From NCBI GenBank assembly GCA_016214075.1, contig JACRPI010000035.1, positions 1 through 34,457 on the forward strand: 34,457 bases of DNA, given 5' to 3'. The translations under genes and the position numbers were made by a program. Under the pieces are notes generated by a model. The model was not told the DNA's origin. It did not search any database and saw only the letters and a list, made by a program, of their open reading frames with translations. Shown here in pieces: positions 5,142 through 29,282 of this stretch. Source of the stretch: Candidatus Woesearchaeota archaeon (GTDB lineage: Archaea; Nanobdellota; Nanobdellia; Woesearchaeales; DSVV01). The stretch's first letter is position 1. Each line of letters starts with the position of its first letter.

Positions 5142-5150
5142 GTTTATAAA
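5142..5150 (+). promoter_or_regulatory. archaeal TATA box driving the sigma-70 gene
   Basis: GTTTATAAA is centred about 26 bp upstream of the GTG start at 5173. The spacing matches the other leaderless genes here, so the sigma-factor gene itself appears to be transcribed by the TBP/TFB system. Confidence 0.6.
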
Positions 5151-13710: not shown

Positions 13711-13720
13711 TGCTTATAAA
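13711..13720 (+). promoter_or_regulatory. TATA box of the repeat protein/sigma operon
   Basis: TGCTTATAAA is centred about 26 bp before the ATG at 13743, giving a leaderless transcript for the two-gene unit. Confidence 0.55.
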
Positions 13721-13742
13721 TTATATACGAATTTCTTAAATA

Positions 13743-15932
13743 ATGAGATTAGACGAACTTGTTGCTTCAGCGTTTCAAGGAGAACTTGAAATCGATGTCC
13801 ATAGAGTAACTCCTGTTAACGGTTCTGGAAAAAGCCAGTTTCGCGGGATTGTCAATTACGCGAATGGTTCTGGTATTGTGCATCAAGGTGTTTTAGATCT
13901 GCTTGTTAATGGTGCTGAAGCAGACGTTTCTTTTGATACGATGTATGTCGATACAATTCCTATTCCTTCTAACCTTGGAATAAATGATTCATTTCCAGTG
14001 ACTTATGTTTCACATCATGAAACAGAAGGCAATGGGAGAATGCCAATAAAGATTATTTCGATTGGAAAGAGTGAAGGAGAAGAAACAGCTCCTCTCCAAA
14101 AAATAGAGTATGCTTCATTAACAGCTGAAAGTGATGGATTAGTAATGCTTCTTCCAAATGTTGCTATTGTAGACAGGGAAATGCTTGAGAATAGGGGTCT
14201 TACTGAGGGGCGAGCAAGAGATAGAACGCATAACAGCAAGAAGTATGGATTTCTGCGATACAATGCTGTTGTTTCTGGAAAAATGCGAACACAGATTCTT
14301 GTTCCATATGAAGCAAGGACTGTTTTCTTTGGTGACAAAGAAATAGAACAACATGTATTTTCAGGAGTTCGACTCATTCCAAAAGAAAGACTAGAAAAAT
14401 ATTGTAAGAGAGAAGAAATTTCTCTCCCGAAGAAAGTGAGTATTCCTGAAATCAGAATAGAAGATGTTTCTTATGTTCCTGCTTCAGTAATTGATCTGTT
14501 TAAAACAACGAAAAGGTCACAAAGAGGTCATCCCAAAGGAGGAGAAGAAGTCAATGCTTCTGTCCAATATACACTTGAAGAAAAAGGACTTATCACAGTG
14601 GTAAAAGAGATTGCGGAGCTAGATAGAATAGAACTCTGGACAAAGACTAAAATAAAGTCGCAAGGATACGCAGGACAAGTACTTCGCCGAGAAACAGAAA
14701 GACATGGATTTGTCGATTACGCAACGCATACCAAAACAGGCTCTCTCAAGCGAGTAACACTTGTTCCAAAAGGAAGCGAAGAAAGAATTTACAAAGGATT
14801 AACATTTGATACATTTATAGATCTTGAATTAATTGCAAAAGAAAGTGTTCAAGCGTATACAGCAGAAAAAGGACACGCAGAAATAAACCCCATAAAGGCA
14901 TCAGTAATAAGAATACAGGGGAGAGAATATTATCTCGCAAGCCAAATTGAAGAAATAATGAAAGAAGAGCAAGGGCAAGTTTCTAAAAAAGAAAAGAAGC
15001 AAAAAGTGAAAAAAGAAGAAGAAGGGAAGCCACTACAACCTTCTTTAGAAGGAACTGCACAAATAAAATACCATACAATAACAAGAACAGTGAATGGAAT
15101 AGAAATATACGTCATGAAAGACGTTGCGACAGTGAGCAGAGAGCTTCTCCTGCAAAAAGGATTAACTGATAATCAAACACAGGGGGCACTTTATGACAGC
15201 GTAAAATTCAGAGGATTCGTAAACTATGAAAGCAGAACAAATGGCAAGCGAATATATGTTCTTGTTCCAAAAGAGAGCGTAGGTGTATTCCGCAAAGATC
15301 TCGTTTTAGAAGAAGAGCATTTTAGAAACATTGAATTACTTGCAGAAGAAAGTGTTGCTGCGTATGTAAAGCAATATGTAACTGGAGAGAATGAAGCGAT
15401 CAAAAATAAAATAAAAGAAAGTCAAACAATGAGAAAAGATGGAAAAATCTATGTGTTAAAAGAAAGCATTGATGCTATTTTGAAAGAAGTAGGAATTGAT
15501 AGTTCAGTAAAAGCAGAGACGAGAGATAAAGCAAAGGGAGAGAGAAAGAAAAAAGATGCTTCTGTTGATACTATAATTAATATCCATGAATACAGACCTT
15601 TAGGAACAACAGAGAAGAATGTCTATACTTATGATGGAAAAAGTGCGCCACTCTTTGATGAAGCAGAGAACGTTGTAAAATATGGAGAAATTTTCAATCC
15701 ATTTACTCCCGAGCATCTTACAGGAGGGGCAAGAAGCACATACCAAGATGCGATGCGGGATAAAATCCTCCGAACAACTGCCGCAAAAGACAGAAGAGAT
15801 AAAGAAGGAAATCCTGTTCCTGAAACAGAAGTAGGAAGAGGAAAAAAGCATTATCTTGAAACAAAAGTTGCAAATCTGTGTATTATGTATTTAGTGGATC
15901 AAGGATATACAATGCCTGCAAAAGTTGAATAA
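13743..15932 (+). CDS. three-repeat protein with excisionase-like modules, partner of the sigma-like gene
   Basis: The product has 729 residues and no membrane segments. After an N-terminal beta-rich region (1-120) it holds three diverged copies of a roughly 130-residue unit (about 124-250, 277-410, 443-585). Each copy has a block of the form GFVNY..(N)GK..Y.LVPKES, then a short helix-rich block; copies 2 and 3 have AESV.AY and GK.YVL.ESID.ILKE, which resembles the end of MerR/excisionase-type winged helices. Copies are separated by Lys/Glu-rich linkers (411-430, 588-605). The C-terminal 120 residues are unique. The sigma-like gene begins 18 bp downstream and carries a similar module near its N-terminus. 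DNA binding and partnership are inference; I know no named family. Confidence 0.55.
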   Translation: MRLDELVASAFQGELEIDVHRVTPVNGSGKSQFRGIVNYANGSGIVHQGVLDLLVNGAEADVSFDTMYVDTIPIPSNLGINDSFPVTYVSHHETEGNGRMPIKIISIGKSEGEETAPLQKIEYASLTAESDGLVMLLPNVAIVDREMLENRGLTEGRARDRTHNSKKYGFLRYNAVVSGKMRTQILVPYEARTVFFGDKEIEQHVFSGVRLIPKERLEKYCKREEISLPKKVSIPEIRIEDVSYVPASVIDLFKTTKRSQRGHPKGGEEVNASVQYTLEEKGLITVVKEIAELDRIELWTKTKIKSQGYAGQVLRRETERHGFVDYATHTKTGSLKRVTLVPKGSEERIYKGLTFDTFIDLELIAKESVQAYTAEKGHAEINPIKASVIRIQGREYYLASQIEEIMKEEQGQVSKKEKKQKVKKEEEGKPLQPSLEGTAQIKYHTITRTVNGIEIYVMKDVATVSRELLLQKGLTDNQTQGALYDSVKFRGFVNYESRTNGKRIYVLVPKESVGVFRKDLVLEEEHFRNIELLAEESVAAYVKQYVTGENEAIKNKIKESQTMRKDGKIYVLKESIDAILKEVGIDSSVKAETRDKAKGERKKKDASVDTIINIHEYRPLGTTEKNVYTYDGKSAPLFDEAENVVKYGEIFNPFTPEHLTGGARSTYQDAMRDKILRTTAAKDRRDKEGNPVPETEVGRGKKHYLETKVANLCIMYLVDQGYTMPAKVE

Positions 15933-15950: not shown

Positions 15951-18905
15951 ATGGTAGAACCAAATTATAGCCGAGAACTTCTTCATTACATTCCAGATCC
16001 TTCTAAAAGAGAAATGAAAGCAGGAAGAATAGAAGGACTTGAAACAGCAGTTCTTAGAGCAGTGCAAAAATCAGTACAACCATTAATGACAGCGATATCT
16101 CTTGAAAATGTTGATGCATATCTTTCGCAGAAATATGGAAAAGAGATTGTACTGAATGGACAAGGAGAAGCGTTGAAAGCGTATGAATATGAAGGAAAAA
16201 GATTTTACAGAAGAAGTGATTTAGATGCGTTAGAGATTACTATTCCTAAAGAAATTCCCACGCCTCCTGTGCAAGAGGATAAAGAAGAGAAGAATCCGCC
16301 TCCAGAACTCAGGAAAGATGAAGAAACAATAATTCCTGCAGAAAAAGAGATTGAAGAAGGAAAGGAACAAGAAGAAGAACCTAAAGCAAGAGAACCTATC
16401 GCTCCAAAAGCTGAACCAGTGCCTCCTCCTGTATACACAAACGCAGAGCGAACAGAAAGATTTCTTCCTCCTTCTCGCGATGAAATCGAAATAACACCCG
16501 CGATGCTTTTGTATCACGCGCTTGCGCGATATGGTGTTCTTGAAAAAGGAAATAAAGAAGGTGTTGCAAGAGTAGAAGAAGCATTGGAGTATATCAGTCA
16601 TCTTCAAAGAGGGATTCTAGAATTATATTATGTCAAAGGTGGCGTTGCGAGAAGAATAGAAGAAAGATTTGGAATAACGCACAGCCAATACATCAGAGAA
16701 AGAAAAACCGCTGAAGATATTATGAAGGCAGTTCTTGCGGGAACCTATAATCCTTTAGCAAAAAGAGAAACAAAAGAGAAACCTCCAAGACCAAGCGAAA
16801 CAACACACCTGAAAAAAGAAAGCAAGTATGGTGATGATCCTCTGCAATGGTATAAAGATCATTGTAGTGGCATGACAAGAACAGAACTTCAAAAAAAGCA
16901 TAAAGGATTGTATGCGCGTTTACACCAACTGAACCTTATAGAGCACGTTCCGAAAAAAGAGAGATACGCAAGAAGAAGCAATGATGAAGAAACAGAAGAA
17001 CCTGATGAAGAAGAACAGAAACCCACGCAAAAGAAAAAACCTGCTGAAGCAAAACCTCAACGTATGTCAGAAAGACAAAAAGATCTTCTCAGAAGATTTG
17101 CGGAACATCGAGCAACGCATGGAAAACCAGAAGACGAAGAACTAACACCAGAAATAGAAGGAGAAAGATTATACTACGCGACAAAGCAATGGAAAACAGT
17201 TGCCGCGTTGGAAGATGCTTTGAATAAATCACATGCACAAGCAAATCAGATAGACAAACTCCGTGGGAAAAAGCTTCCTGATGATTTCGCGAGAATTACC
17301 GATGGAGACGCGACTATTGATTTCCTTGTTCGAGATGAATGCTATGCAATTGCAGATGTATATGTACGTGAAGTATACACACGAGCTGTTGAAGGAGTAG
17401 TATGGCCAATCTCTGATGAACATATCCAGAAACAAGAAAAAGAAAATCCAAGAGATCCAAAGAAAAAAATAAAAGTGAAAGAAGAAGAAATTCGAGCAGG
17501 ATTTGTTGCTGCGTATGAAGCATATCTAAAAAAACCATCAGAAGACGCGCTTATCGCGCTTTTCAAGAATACGCCAAGACTTTCGAGGGGATATATTGCG
17601 ACAGTGGGATGGTATTTTGCGAGTAAGGATGAGAAAGACGAAAAAAGAAAAGGAGATTGGAATGGAAGCAAATGGAGATATACGCCAACATGGAAAGACG
17701 CGTGGACTTTTTTTGTTCCTGATAAAAATATACATAGAAAGAAAAGAACTGGAACACCTGTTTTGCTTTCAGAACCACAATTTGGACATCTCTTAGAAGG
17801 AAGTACAGAAAAAGTATTGCGAAGCAGATACAGGCAACTGTGGTACCACGCGGAAACAGCGCGAGGGAATACAGTAACAAAATACACAGGATTTGCTGTT
17901 TCACAAGCAAAAAAGTTTGATTGGACAGAAATTCCTCTTAGCGACAGAATCAGTCTCGCGAAAGAAGGACTTCTTCGCGCGTCACAAAAATATGATCCAA
18001 CTTCTGACAGCAATTTTGCGACATATGCGTCACATTGGATAAAAGCAATGATTACGCGAGAACATAGAGGGTCAAGTAATATTCGAATTACCGCAAACAT
18101 GTGGGAAAAGATTTTCAAAATCCAAAGAGAGATAAAAGATATTAAGAAAGACGACCTAGATATTGATGAAGAAGAATTATACGCGCTTGTTCAAGAAAGA
18201 ACAGGTATTGCGCGTGAAACCATAAAGACTGCGCTGCAAGCAGTAGCGGATTATAATAGCGTAGTATCACTCGATGACAAAGCATATAGTGAAGCGGGAA
18301 GCAAAGGAAGAAATGAAAAGCGACTGAGTGATATGATCGCTGATAAAAGCGCGATTGGCGTAGATGAAGAAGCTGTTCAGAAAGATCAAGGAGAAAACCT
18401 CAAAAGAGCTCGCAATGGACTAACAGAACGAGAGAATTATGTTTTAGACAGAAGATTTGATGGAGGAGATTGGGAAGGACAAACACTTTCTGAAGTAGGA
18501 AAAGAGATGGGATTGAGTAGAGAACGAGTAAGACAGATTCAACTGGATGCATTAGATAAACTTCGAGGAGAGCTTAACAAACCAGCTCCAAGAATATCTG
18601 AAGAAGATAAAGCTTCTTCAAATGATACAGGGAAACAAAGAAAAGCAGTAGCTCTTAGAGAACATAGAGAAGAAGATATGATCGTTGGTACAGCAATCCC
18701 AAACACATACACAGGACAAGCATATTCACCAGAAGATCCAGAGACACAAGAAATCACAAGAAGATTTACTCCCTCCAGCAGAGATATTGTTGAACGCTAT
18801 TACATGAGAGGAGAGTCCTTAGTAAAAATCAGAGCAGATACAAAACAACCTCTTGAACACATCGTTAGACTTCTTGAAAACGCAGGCAAACTTCTTCCAA
18901 AGTAA
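15951..18905 (+). CDS. very large sigma-70-like protein with long N-terminal extension
   Basis: The product has 984 residues. Residues 46-96 (LENVDAYL...YEGKRFYRRSDLDAL) resemble an excisionase-type HTH and the modules of the preceding gene. An acidic, Pro-rich linker follows (97-165), then a sigma4-like helical region (about 184-260), a further HTH-like stretch (300-340), and about 250 unassigned residues. Sigma region 2 is at about 636-713 (LAKEGLLRASQKYDP, FATYASHWIKAMITRE, NIRITANMW), region 3 at about 725-800, and region 4 at 820-873 (LTERENYVLDRRF, LSEVGKEMGLSRERVRQIQ). Compared with RpoD the WWIRQ motif reads HWIKA, so promoter specificity should differ. A last HTH-like block ends the protein. 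Start follows AAAGGA by 5 bp. It is co-transcribed with the repeat gene. Confidence 0.85.
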   Translation: MVEPNYSRELLHYIPDPSKREMKAGRIEGLETAVLRAVQKSVQPLMTAISLENVDAYLSQKYGKEIVLNGQGEALKAYEYEGKRFYRRSDLDALEITIPKEIPTPPVQEDKEEKNPPPELRKDEETIIPAEKEIEEGKEQEEEPKAREPIAPKAEPVPPPVYTNAERTERFLPPSRDEIEITPAMLLYHALARYGVLEKGNKEGVARVEEALEYISHLQRGILELYYVKGGVARRIEERFGITHSQYIRERKTAEDIMKAVLAGTYNPLAKRETKEKPPRPSETTHLKKESKYGDDPLQWYKDHCSGMTRTELQKKHKGLYARLHQLNLIEHVPKKERYARRSNDEETEEPDEEEQKPTQKKKPAEAKPQRMSERQKDLLRRFAEHRATHGKPEDEELTPEIEGERLYYATKQWKTVAALEDALNKSHAQANQIDKLRGKKLPDDFARITDGDATIDFLVRDECYAIADVYVREVYTRAVEGVVWPISDEHIQKQEKENPRDPKKKIKVKEEEIRAGFVAAYEAYLKKPSEDALIALFKNTPRLSRGYIATVGWYFASKDEKDEKRKGDWNGSKWRYTPTWKDAWTFFVPDKNIHRKKRTGTPVLLSEPQFGHLLEGSTEKVLRSRYRQLWYHAETARGNTVTKYTGFAVSQAKKFDWTEIPLSDRISLAKEGLLRASQKYDPTSDSNFATYASHWIKAMITREHRGSSNIRITANMWEKIFKIQREIKDIKKDDLDIDEEELYALVQERTGIARETIKTALQAVADYNSVVSLDDKAYSEAGSKGRNEKRLSDMIADKSAIGVDEEAVQKDQGENLKRARNGLTERENYVLDRRFDGGDWEGQTLSEVGKEMGLSRERVRQIQLDALDKLRGELNKPAPRISEEDKASSNDTGKQRKAVALREHREEDMIVGTAIPNTYTGQAYSPEDPETQEITRRFTPSSRDIVERYYMRGESLVKIRADTKQPLEHIVRLLENAGKLLPK

Positions 18906-18946
18906 ATTCTCTCCGAAATATTTATATTCTTCAGAAAAAGAAAGGG

Positions 18947-19059
18947 CGCTGAGGCGGGGAATCGAACCCCGATAGGCGCTAACCTAATGGTTCACTCGTG
19001 CTCTCTGTGTGAACAGGGAGCATTTGAGACCATTGCCCTTCCAATTAGGCGTCCTCAGC
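18947..19059 (-). tRNA. tRNA-Leu(CAA)-like, type II, with intron
   Basis: The acceptor stem is GCTGAGG/CCTCAGC with discriminator G. The D arm is GCC/GGC, the anticodon stem ATGGT/ACCAT, the variable arm TAGG/CCTA, and the T arm CGGGG-TTCGATT-CCCCG. Removing an intron of about 30 nt after position 37 leaves the loop CTCAAAA, anticodon CAA. The intron forms its own hairpin (GCTC/GAGC plus CTGT/ACAG). Position 8 appears to be A rather than the nearly universal T. TATA box CATATTAAA is at 19081-19089. Confidence 0.8.
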
Positions 19060-19097
19060 ATAGCACTTTCTTAAAACAAACATATTAAAGTAAGTAT

Positions 19098-19221: not shown

Positions 19222-20226
19222 CTACTTTCCCTTCTTCTTAAATCTCGAAAAATACACAATACTAAACAATAGAATTACAGGAATAACTAATGGAATGTAA
19301 AAGTACCATTGCGATTTCACATCTTCAATGTCAGAAACAATAATAGGAACAATCTCTTCACTTTCCGCAGTGTTCAAAGGAAGATTAACATCATACTCTA
19401 CAGTTTGTGTCGTGTCAACAGCGGAAAAGTGCCACATCATAACTGGATCAACATCAAGAACAGAATAATTACCCGCAAGAGTGAGATTGTTCAAGTGGCT
19501 GACAACTTCCTTTGGAAGGACAGCATAGAGAGAAACCTCTTTGCCAATCGCGGATGCGATTGCTGGTTTCACACTCAAGCGAATACGCGTGTGTTCTTCT
19601 TCTTCTCCAGTAAATTTATTTCGGACAGTGATAGTCGTGACATATTTCTTGACAGTAAAAAAAGTGGAGCTTGTTTGATATTCCTGCTGACTCACAGAAA
19701 CACTGTCCAAATCTTCCTGACGAACAACATAAGAGGAAGTTTGTTCTCCCTCACTGGAAAGTAATTCATAGTAATCATCAAGGTTGACCGCGATGTAAAA
19801 GATCGCGCTATCGCTGCCAAGTTGATTCCCTGCAGCGTCATAAGCAATAACAGTAAGATTCTGGAAAGCGCTCAAGTAGCCGATCAAATCAAGGGGCTCA
19901 AGATCATCTGATTTAAATTCGATAATAGAATTATCAGGAACTGCGTCCCGCATGCTCATGTTGCCGACATACTGCACCCATTCATTGTTTCGCATAATTC
20001 TATAATACGCGACATTTTCAGAAACAGAAACGTTCAAACGAAGATGATGCGCTTTTCCACCTGTTCTGGGATAATCAAAGTAGGTCTCGCTCCATGGACC
20101 GTAGGTAACCCCATCTTCTGGGAAGTTGAGGGTAATCGCAGACGCTGTTTCCTGACCGAAAATTGTTGGAAGAAAGAAAAGTGTGACTAAGAAAAGAATA
20201 CTAAAATAGGAAACACACCTCTTCAT
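19222..20226 (-). CDS. secreted, C-terminally anchored surface protein
   Basis: The product has 334 residues. A signal peptide (about 1-30, with FLVTLFFLPTIFGQETASA) precedes beta-rich regions (about 31-145 and 165-300) of Ig-like or S-layer-like character with several N-x-S/T sites. One transmembrane helix (about 305-326, FYIPLVIPVILLFSIVYF) and the basic tail SRFKKKGK anchor it. I recognise no catalytic motif. It is likely exported by Sec and displayed on the envelope. A TATA box (CTATTTATAG, near 20248-20257) about 26 bp before the ATG implies a leaderless transcript. It is the only gene between two near-identical tRNA genes. Confidence 0.65.
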   Translation of the reverse strand: MKRCVSYFSILFLVTLFFLPTIFGQETASAITLNFPEDGVTYGPWSETYFDYPRTGGKAHHLRLNVSVSENVAYYRIMRNNEWVQYVGNMSMRDAVPDNSIIEFKSDDLEPLDLIGYLSAFQNLTVIAYDAAGNQLGSDSAIFYIAVNLDDYYELLSSEGEQTSSYVVRQEDLDSVSVSQQEYQTSSTFFTVKKYVTTITVRNKFTGEEEEHTRIRLSVKPAIASAIGKEVSLYAVLPKEVVSHLNNLTLAGNYSVLDVDPVMMWHFSAVDTTQTVEYDVNLPLNTAESEEIVPIIVSDIEDVKSQWYFYIPLVIPVILLFSIVYFSRFKKKGK

Positions 20227-20320
20227 AGCTGTATTTTGAAAATATGACTATAAATAGTTTGCTAAAAAAACAATACGCGAAAAATGAGGAAAACTTTATA
20301 TTCTTTAGAGAAAAAGAAGA

Positions 20321-20436
20321 CGCTGAGGCGGGGAATTGAACCCCGAAAGGCCCTGACAGACCTTATGGTTCACTCATGCTCTTTGTTGAGCAAAGAGCAT
20401 TTGAGACCATTGCCCTACCAATTAGGCGTCCTCAGC
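20321..20436 (-). tRNA. tRNA-Leu(CAA)-like, type II, with intron
   Basis: The body is nearly identical to the tRNA at 18947-19059 (same acceptor, D and anticodon stems, T stem, discriminator G, A8), but the intron and variable arm (AAGG...CCTT) differ. The intron has a clean 8-bp stem GCTCTTTG/CAAAGAGC, and loop CTCA pairs with TGAG across the splice sites, a good bulge-helix-bulge. The mature loop is CTCAAAA, anticodon CAA. TATA box CATATTAAAA is at 20465-20474. Confidence 0.85.
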
Positions 20437-20479
20437 AAAATACATGTCAATTTCTTAGAACAAACATATTAAAATCTCT

Positions 20480-29061: not shown

Positions 29062-29089
29062 CTTCTTCTAAAAAAAGGATAAAAATATT

Positions 29090-29206
29090 GGTGAGGTCGC
29101 ATAACATGGTTATTGCAGTGGTCTCAAAAACCTGTGTTGTCCAACACAGGCATGAGCGAGCCACAAGGTGTAACAGCCTTTCGGGGTTCAAATCCCCGCC
29201 TCATCG
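29090..29206 (+). tRNA. tRNA-Leu(CAA)-like, type II, with intron
   Basis: The acceptor stem is GGTGAGG/CCTCATC (one G-T pair) with discriminator G. The D stem is GCA/TGC with a 12-nt loop, as in the 1844-1964 tRNA. The anticodon stem is GTGGT/GCCAC, the variable arm AAGG/CCTT, and the T arm CGGGG-TTCAAAT-CCCCG. A 30-nt intron (29129-29158) with stem CCTGTGTT/AACACAGG interrupts the loop after position 37; CTCA pairs with TGAG across the site. The mature loop is CTCAAAA, anticodon CAA. Confidence 0.85.
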
Positions 29207-29282
29207 TTTATTATTCTGAAGAAGAATATAAAGATTGTGAAAACAAAAACCTTTATGAAGGAATTCACAACATCATTTCCTT

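Follow-up and report, generated by a model that had tools for sequence, protein, structure and literature searches.

The stretch of DNA analyzed here (the window, 34,457 nucleotides) makes up one entire contig of an archaeal genome of 1.62 Mb and 98% completeness, assigned to Candidatus Woesearchaeota. It carries genes for two different sigma factors, P0001 and P0002, as the earlier note on this DNA had recognized. A sigma factor directs bacterial RNA polymerase, of which it is a subunit, to its start sites. Archaeal transcription starts with TBP and TFB, both of which are encoded in this genome. The features of the two loci are the following.

5143..5150, + strand: TATA-like sequence TTTATAAA, 23-30 bases before P0002
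5173..6585, + strand: P0002, the other sigma, 470 aa, DLVQYGN and WWIRQ present
13713..13727, + strand: TATA-like sequence CTTATAAATTATATA, 16-30 bases before P0003 (sequence and positional profile)
13743..15932, + strand: P0003, 729 aa, with three repeats of ~150 aa; P0001 follows on the same strand after 18 bp
15951..18905, + strand: P0001, 984-aa sigma-70-family protein (ORF; Pfam, PDB, AlphaFold, Foldseek)
16032..16229, + strand: N-terminal alpha/beta domain, aa 28-93, pLDDT mostly 57-77
16497..16739, + strand: helical block, weakly like antitermination Q or a sigma4 HTH, aa 183-263 (profiles, model)
16806..16988, + strand: single copy of a 46-aa DPLxYYxxHYxGxTRxxL repeat, aa 286-346, core pLDDT 93-95
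17826..18569, + strand: sigma core of P0001, regions 2 to 4, aa 626-873 (iterated HMM, AlphaFold)
17943..17963, + strand: region 2.2 docking motif, DRISLAK replacing DLIQEGN, aa 665-671
18033..18047, + strand: region 2.4, HWIKA replacing WWIRQ, aa 695-699
18519..18539, + strand: region 4.2 recognition helix RERVRQI, intact, aa 857-863

P0001, a divergent sigma-70 homologue with a mosaic N-terminus

The open reading frame of P0001 starts with ATG and runs for 984 residues with no internal stop. That it encodes a sigma-70-like protein with regions 2 to 4 towards the C-terminus had been proposed from the sequence, and Pfam, PDB, iterated HMM, AlphaFold, and Foldseek agree. In Pfam, Sigma70_r4 (PF04545) scored 54.3 bits against a cut-off of 24.1, and Sigma70_r2 (PF04542) scored 20 bits in the protein scan, where the cut-off is 24, and 24 bits, equal to the cut-off, in the genome search. 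The best PDB sequence match was SigB (7.3e-23), followed by SigA, RpoS, and RpoD, and an HMM iterated with relatives gave the core an E value of 1.5e-60. The AlphaFold model, computed with 43 core relatives as input and with a structure alignment that covers the sigma core only, has a pLDDT mostly above 90 from sigma2 to sigma4, and all listed Foldseek matches of the model in the PDB are sigma-70 proteins. Hence, the profile and structure checks assigned the core to no non-sigma HTH family and recovered both the sigma2 and the sigma4 folds. Region 1.2 (PF00140) and region 3 had no match in the Pfam scan. An unmatched region 3 would suit an ECF (group 4) sigma, which has sigma2 and sigma4 but no sigma3, but the model places helices at aa 715-769, between sigma2 and sigma4.

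The substitution of HWIKA for WWIRQ, pointed out earlier, is present in the region 2.4 stretch ATYASHWIKAMITR and corresponds to W433H and Q437A, with W434 and T440 kept (E. coli numbering). However, the changes go beyond region 2.4, the part named in the earlier note, and also remove the docking motif of region 2.2: positions D403, Q406, E407, and N409 read D, S, L, and K, so that three of the four polymerase-docking residues are replaced (Q406S, E407L, N409K). This reading of region 2.2 comes from a single divergent sequence without orthologs. Region 2 retains W434, T440, and the sigma2 fold, and promoter melting may therefore be possible. In region 4.2, the equivalents of the -35 recognition residues R584, E585, R588, and Q589 are all present. 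Because the docking residues are retained in most sigma cores of the order (of 55 cores, D403 in 51, Q406 in 40, E407 in 44, and N409 in 45; W433 in 40), P0001 belongs to a divergent minority. Because of its replaced docking residues, we file it as a divergent sigma-70 homologue and not as a canonical sigma factor. Nor does it qualify as a group 1 (housekeeping) sigma, given its unmatched region 1.2, its changed W433 and Q437, and the lack of -35/-10 enrichment in the promoters of the genome.

P0001 shares with the bacterial group 1 and 2 sigmas (RpoD, SigA, SigB, and RpoS) the homology of regions 2 and 4, the sigma2-sigma4 fold, perhaps including sigma3, and the region 4.2 helix, but core identity is only ~30% and the Pfam regions 1.2 and 3 are unmatched. 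It further differs from them by the replacement of Q406, E407, and N409, by a long unrelated N-terminus, and by the archaeal polymerase of its host. Among PHROG profiles, phage sigma factors (phrog_351) matched the core best (2.1e-41); this match is limited to aa 634-906, and for the N-terminus no phage relative turned up. MzaA of the MZA anti-phage system is also a big sigma-70 protein with an N-terminal extension and a similar core, but P0001 reached only 81.4 bits against a curated cut-off of 800, with only the sigma core matching. No other MZA components were recognized beside P0001, and we rejected an assignment to this defense system.

The N-terminus of P0001 is a mosaic. About 630 residues with HTH-like blocks had been reported to precede the core; one weak helical block, at aa 183-263, fits that description (PF06530, E 0.025; phrog_79, 8e-4), but the rest consists of the repeat, the alpha/beta domain, which has no Pfam family match, and long disordered or charged linkers. 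The 46-aa repeat also occurs once in a giant archaeal sigma of another family, an 877-aa protein of genome G286 (1e-15). Small proteins of the order (L187, L191, L189, L190, and L196) consist of tandem 46-aa DPLxYYxxHYxGxTRGxL repeats in 2-5 copies and have no convincing Pfam match.

Genomic setting, promoters, and sigma-70 genes of the order

P0001 and P0002 lie ~9 kb apart, and their region 2 matches are the only two Sigma70_r2 matches in the genome. P0002 has a detectable region 1.2 (PF00140), as do other long sigmas that we scanned. Its place between TsaD and a glycosyltransferase is kept in a same-genus genome, where the sigma at the same locus (L039:1731-3170) is 33% identical to P0002, compared with 89% for TsaD and 74% for the glycosyltransferase. 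Neighbors in the window are archaeal (a TsaD/Kae1-type protein, LonB, an archaellum-type ATPase, and membrane genes), and the window is syntenic with same-genus genomes. Bacterial contamination or a misassembled chimera could be suspected, sigma factors being a bacterial hallmark. This hardly credible explanation is in effect ruled out by the archaeal neighbors on both sides of both sigmas, the same-genus synteny, the TATA boxes before the sigma genes, and the presence of sigma genes in many genomes of the order.

A TATA-like hexamer peak was found 21-40 bases before start codons in 384 upstream regions, and the TATA-like sequences of P0003 and P0002 lie at about this genome-wide distance. TTGACA-TATAAT pairs were not enriched (30 sense, 17 antisense, and 24 +/- 3 simulated) in the ~656 kb of the genome that the promoter statistics cover, a test that a few sigma-dependent promoters would escape. 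The TATA boxes and the absent -35/-10 enrichment argue against a housekeeping sigma role, which we rejected. The clamp coiled coil of the genome's own Rpo1' reads I, L, and H where E. coli has R275, E295, and A302, which we take to be sigma-contact residues of the polymerase clamp. With a verified E. coli clamp segment as reference, these three E. coli residues were found in none of the 13 sigma-bearing and 14 sigma-free genomes read.

P0003 has no family match, and one of its repeats gave no meaningful Foldseek match from a weak model (pLDDT 52). An excisionase/MerR identity of the repeats was unsupported. A domain shared between these repeats and the N-terminus of P0001, plausible by eye, was rejected (hhalign P 0.015; HMM score below that of shuffled controls). 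Conservation of the gene and its neighbor, which the earlier note had proposed to check, was not borne out: P0001 has no ortholog in 60 relatives, and P0003 has no homolog in 193 genomes of the order except for one match, to a secreted Ig-like protein in G178, which we judged to be due to chance. The P0003-P0001 block is absent from the readable parts of the homologous loci in relatives, and a search of further genome contigs and viral contigs yielded no relatives of P0001. The GC3 of the block is low (6th-9th percentile), an anomaly that is only suggestive, and a tRNA-Leu gene lies ~38 bp downstream of P0001. Four intron-containing tRNA genes (1843-1965, 18944-19060, 20319-20437, and 29089-29207) were missed by the default tRNA scan, although the Rfam gathering score is reached by three of the four. 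The gene at 19222-20226 is flanked by the two at 18944 and 20319, which are similar in their acceptor and D arms; the first of these two is the one ~38 bp after P0001.

In G009, G006, G029, G045, G022, G177, and G331, long sigmas are likewise immediately preceded by a large same-strand gene (524-813 aa), which, with the P0003-P0001 pair, brings the arrangement to eight genomes; of all genes in G000, 3.8% are at least 700 aa long. Two of these upstream genes have weak MerR/HTH_17 matches, and homology among those of different genomes was found only between G009 and G006, in addition to a weak repeat match between G009 and G045. A large gene upstream of long sigmas is thus suggestive of a recurrent arrangement whose homology is unproven. 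Immediately 5' of the 877-aa sigma of G286 lies a gene for a 793-aa GHKL ATPase (HATPase_c_3; L333:7065-9446).

PF04542 is found in 140 of the 353 genomes of the order, and in 79 of the 180 high-quality ones, often in several copies and in frames of 56 to 1763 residues. At four shared loci, sigma dN/dS ranged from 0.32 to 0.53; that of neighbors was 0.04-0.12 in seven of nine comparisons and 0.21 and 0.49 in two genes adjoining a sigma. All of these values are rough, with dS saturated in several pairs, and by this rough measure, sigma genes evolve faster than most of their neighbors. In a sigma tree, archaeal sequences interleave with bacterial and viral ones, and P0001 falls tentatively, on a long branch, beside a Vibrio phage sigma. 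The proposal that two sigmas in one window reflect an established sigma-based system fits the order as a whole and P0002, whose locus is shared with a same-genus genome, but is not supported for P0001 itself, because P0001 has no ortholog and is missing from the readable homologous loci. Those promoters of the genome that could be measured are TATA boxes of the archaeal type, and -35/-10 pairs are not in excess.

A proposed role for P0001 and its alternatives

Castelle et al. (2021, PMC8204110) have already reported sigma-70 (fam00359) from Woesearchaeota and further DPANN archaea, in small genomes that, like this one, also have TBP and TFB. That survey excluded misbinning by co-encoded genes, whereas we did so by synteny; it found no anti-sigma factor with Woesearchaeota sigma-70 and called the controlling mechanism unclear. 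The survey reports presence only, whereas the present case adds a 984-aa mosaic protein with an altered docking motif, an upstream repeat protein, and no ortholog in 60 relatives. Sigma-70 in such archaea is therefore known, but the giant, mosaic, dock-altered form beside a repeat-protein gene is new.

Our current working hypothesis, to which we tentatively give a probability of roughly 45%, is that P0001, a fast-diverging sigma-70 superfamily protein specific to its lineage, has been rewired as a gene-specific DNA-binding regulator. P0003 and P0001 would probably be expressed together from an archaeal TATA promoter, and the intact sigma4 helix of P0001 would read a -35-like element. Its N-terminal modules, perhaps with P0003, may add DNA or protein contacts. 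The altered sigma2 would no longer dock on polymerase in the canonical bacterial way, having either changed contacts to the archaeal polymerase or become a structural or DNA-contact module instead, and the targets would be a small gene set. DNA binding, the partnership with P0003, and a regulatory effect are thus predicted from the following evidence. We favor a regulator because region 4.2 is intact while the contact residues of regions 2.2 and 2.4 are replaced, because the Rpo1' clamp of this very genome lacks the E. coli sigma-contact residues and TBP and TFB are present, because upstream regions show a TATA peak and no TTGACA-TATAAT enrichment, and because the 46-aa repeat is common to another giant sigma and big upstream genes recur in eight genomes.

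Among the alternatives, a true initiation factor ranks first, mobile cargo second, and action on a foreign bacterial polymerase third. As an initiation factor, P0001 would recruit the archaeal polymerase at a small number of special promoters, where it would stand in for TFB and TBP, and its polymerase contacts would have co-evolved to differ from the bacterial ones. The kept sigma2-sigma4 fold, W434, T440, and region 4.2 are consistent with this, as is the retention of docking and -10 residues by most sigmas of the order, which suggests that selection maintains an initiation-like function in the family, where dN/dS stays below 1. We nevertheless consider it unlikely for P0001, in view of the replaced Q406, E407, N409, W433, and Q437, the unmatched Pfam regions 1.2 and 3, and a polymerase clamp with no sigma-linked change; the lack of -35/-10 enrichment points the same way, although it would miss a signal confined to very few promoters. 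The block could instead be mobile or viral cargo, or a decaying remnant, of little function for the host. Its absence from the readable homologous loci of relatives, the missing orthologs of P0001, the adjacent tRNA-Leu gene, the low GC3, and the phage sigma family as best PHROG match would all fit. We find this rather improbable, as no integrase or other mobile-element gene was recognized beside the block, the 984- and 729-codon frames are intact, the N-terminus has no viral relative, P0003 is preceded by a TATA box, and long sigmas of other families also have a large gene upstream.

A still less probable explanation is that these sigma proteins act on a bacterial polymerase in another cell, either a partner or a host, with P0001 as a diverged representative. 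It would account for the bacterial docking motif in most sigmas of the order next to an own polymerase devoid of the three partner residues, for the lack of a -35/-10 signal in the genome, and for the fast evolution and the patchy, multicopy distribution of the genes. However, neither an export signal nor a route of delivery was identified, the docking motif is lost in P0001 itself, and the motif would also be intact if the genes had been acquired recently or repeatedly from bacteria or phages, in line with the interleaved tree. An extension of this idea, to which we attach very little weight, is that archaeal sigmas with a docking face suited to bacteria act in trans on a bacterial partner's polymerase and that P0001 and its upstream repeat protein are an offshoot retooled for DNA binding.

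With a canonical-looking P0002 and a diverged P0001, both in an archaeal promoter setting, this one genome makes the question of what sigma factors do in archaea testable, and relatives within its family, some with a sigma and some lacking one, provide controls. If such sigmas do direct initiation on archaeal polymerase, archaea would possess a second initiation route; if they do not, a sigma scaffold would have been turned into an ordinary regulator.

Unusual sigma frames in the order

Several sigma frames of the order are unusual in their architecture. A 1550-aa protein of genome G306 (L338:4696-9348) holds three Sigma70_r2 and two region 4 stretches in one frame, as well as an HTH_17 domain above cut-off, and a 1741-aa protein (L331:2316-7541) ends in a complete C-terminal sigma with regions 1.2, 2, 3, and 4. 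In the same-genus genome G002, which has no region 2 match, a 116-aa frame (L092:774-1124) contains sigma region 4 only and is perhaps a remnant. Both G278 (contig C56) and G279 (contig C28) have a contig on which three sigma matches are clustered (L137, L128).
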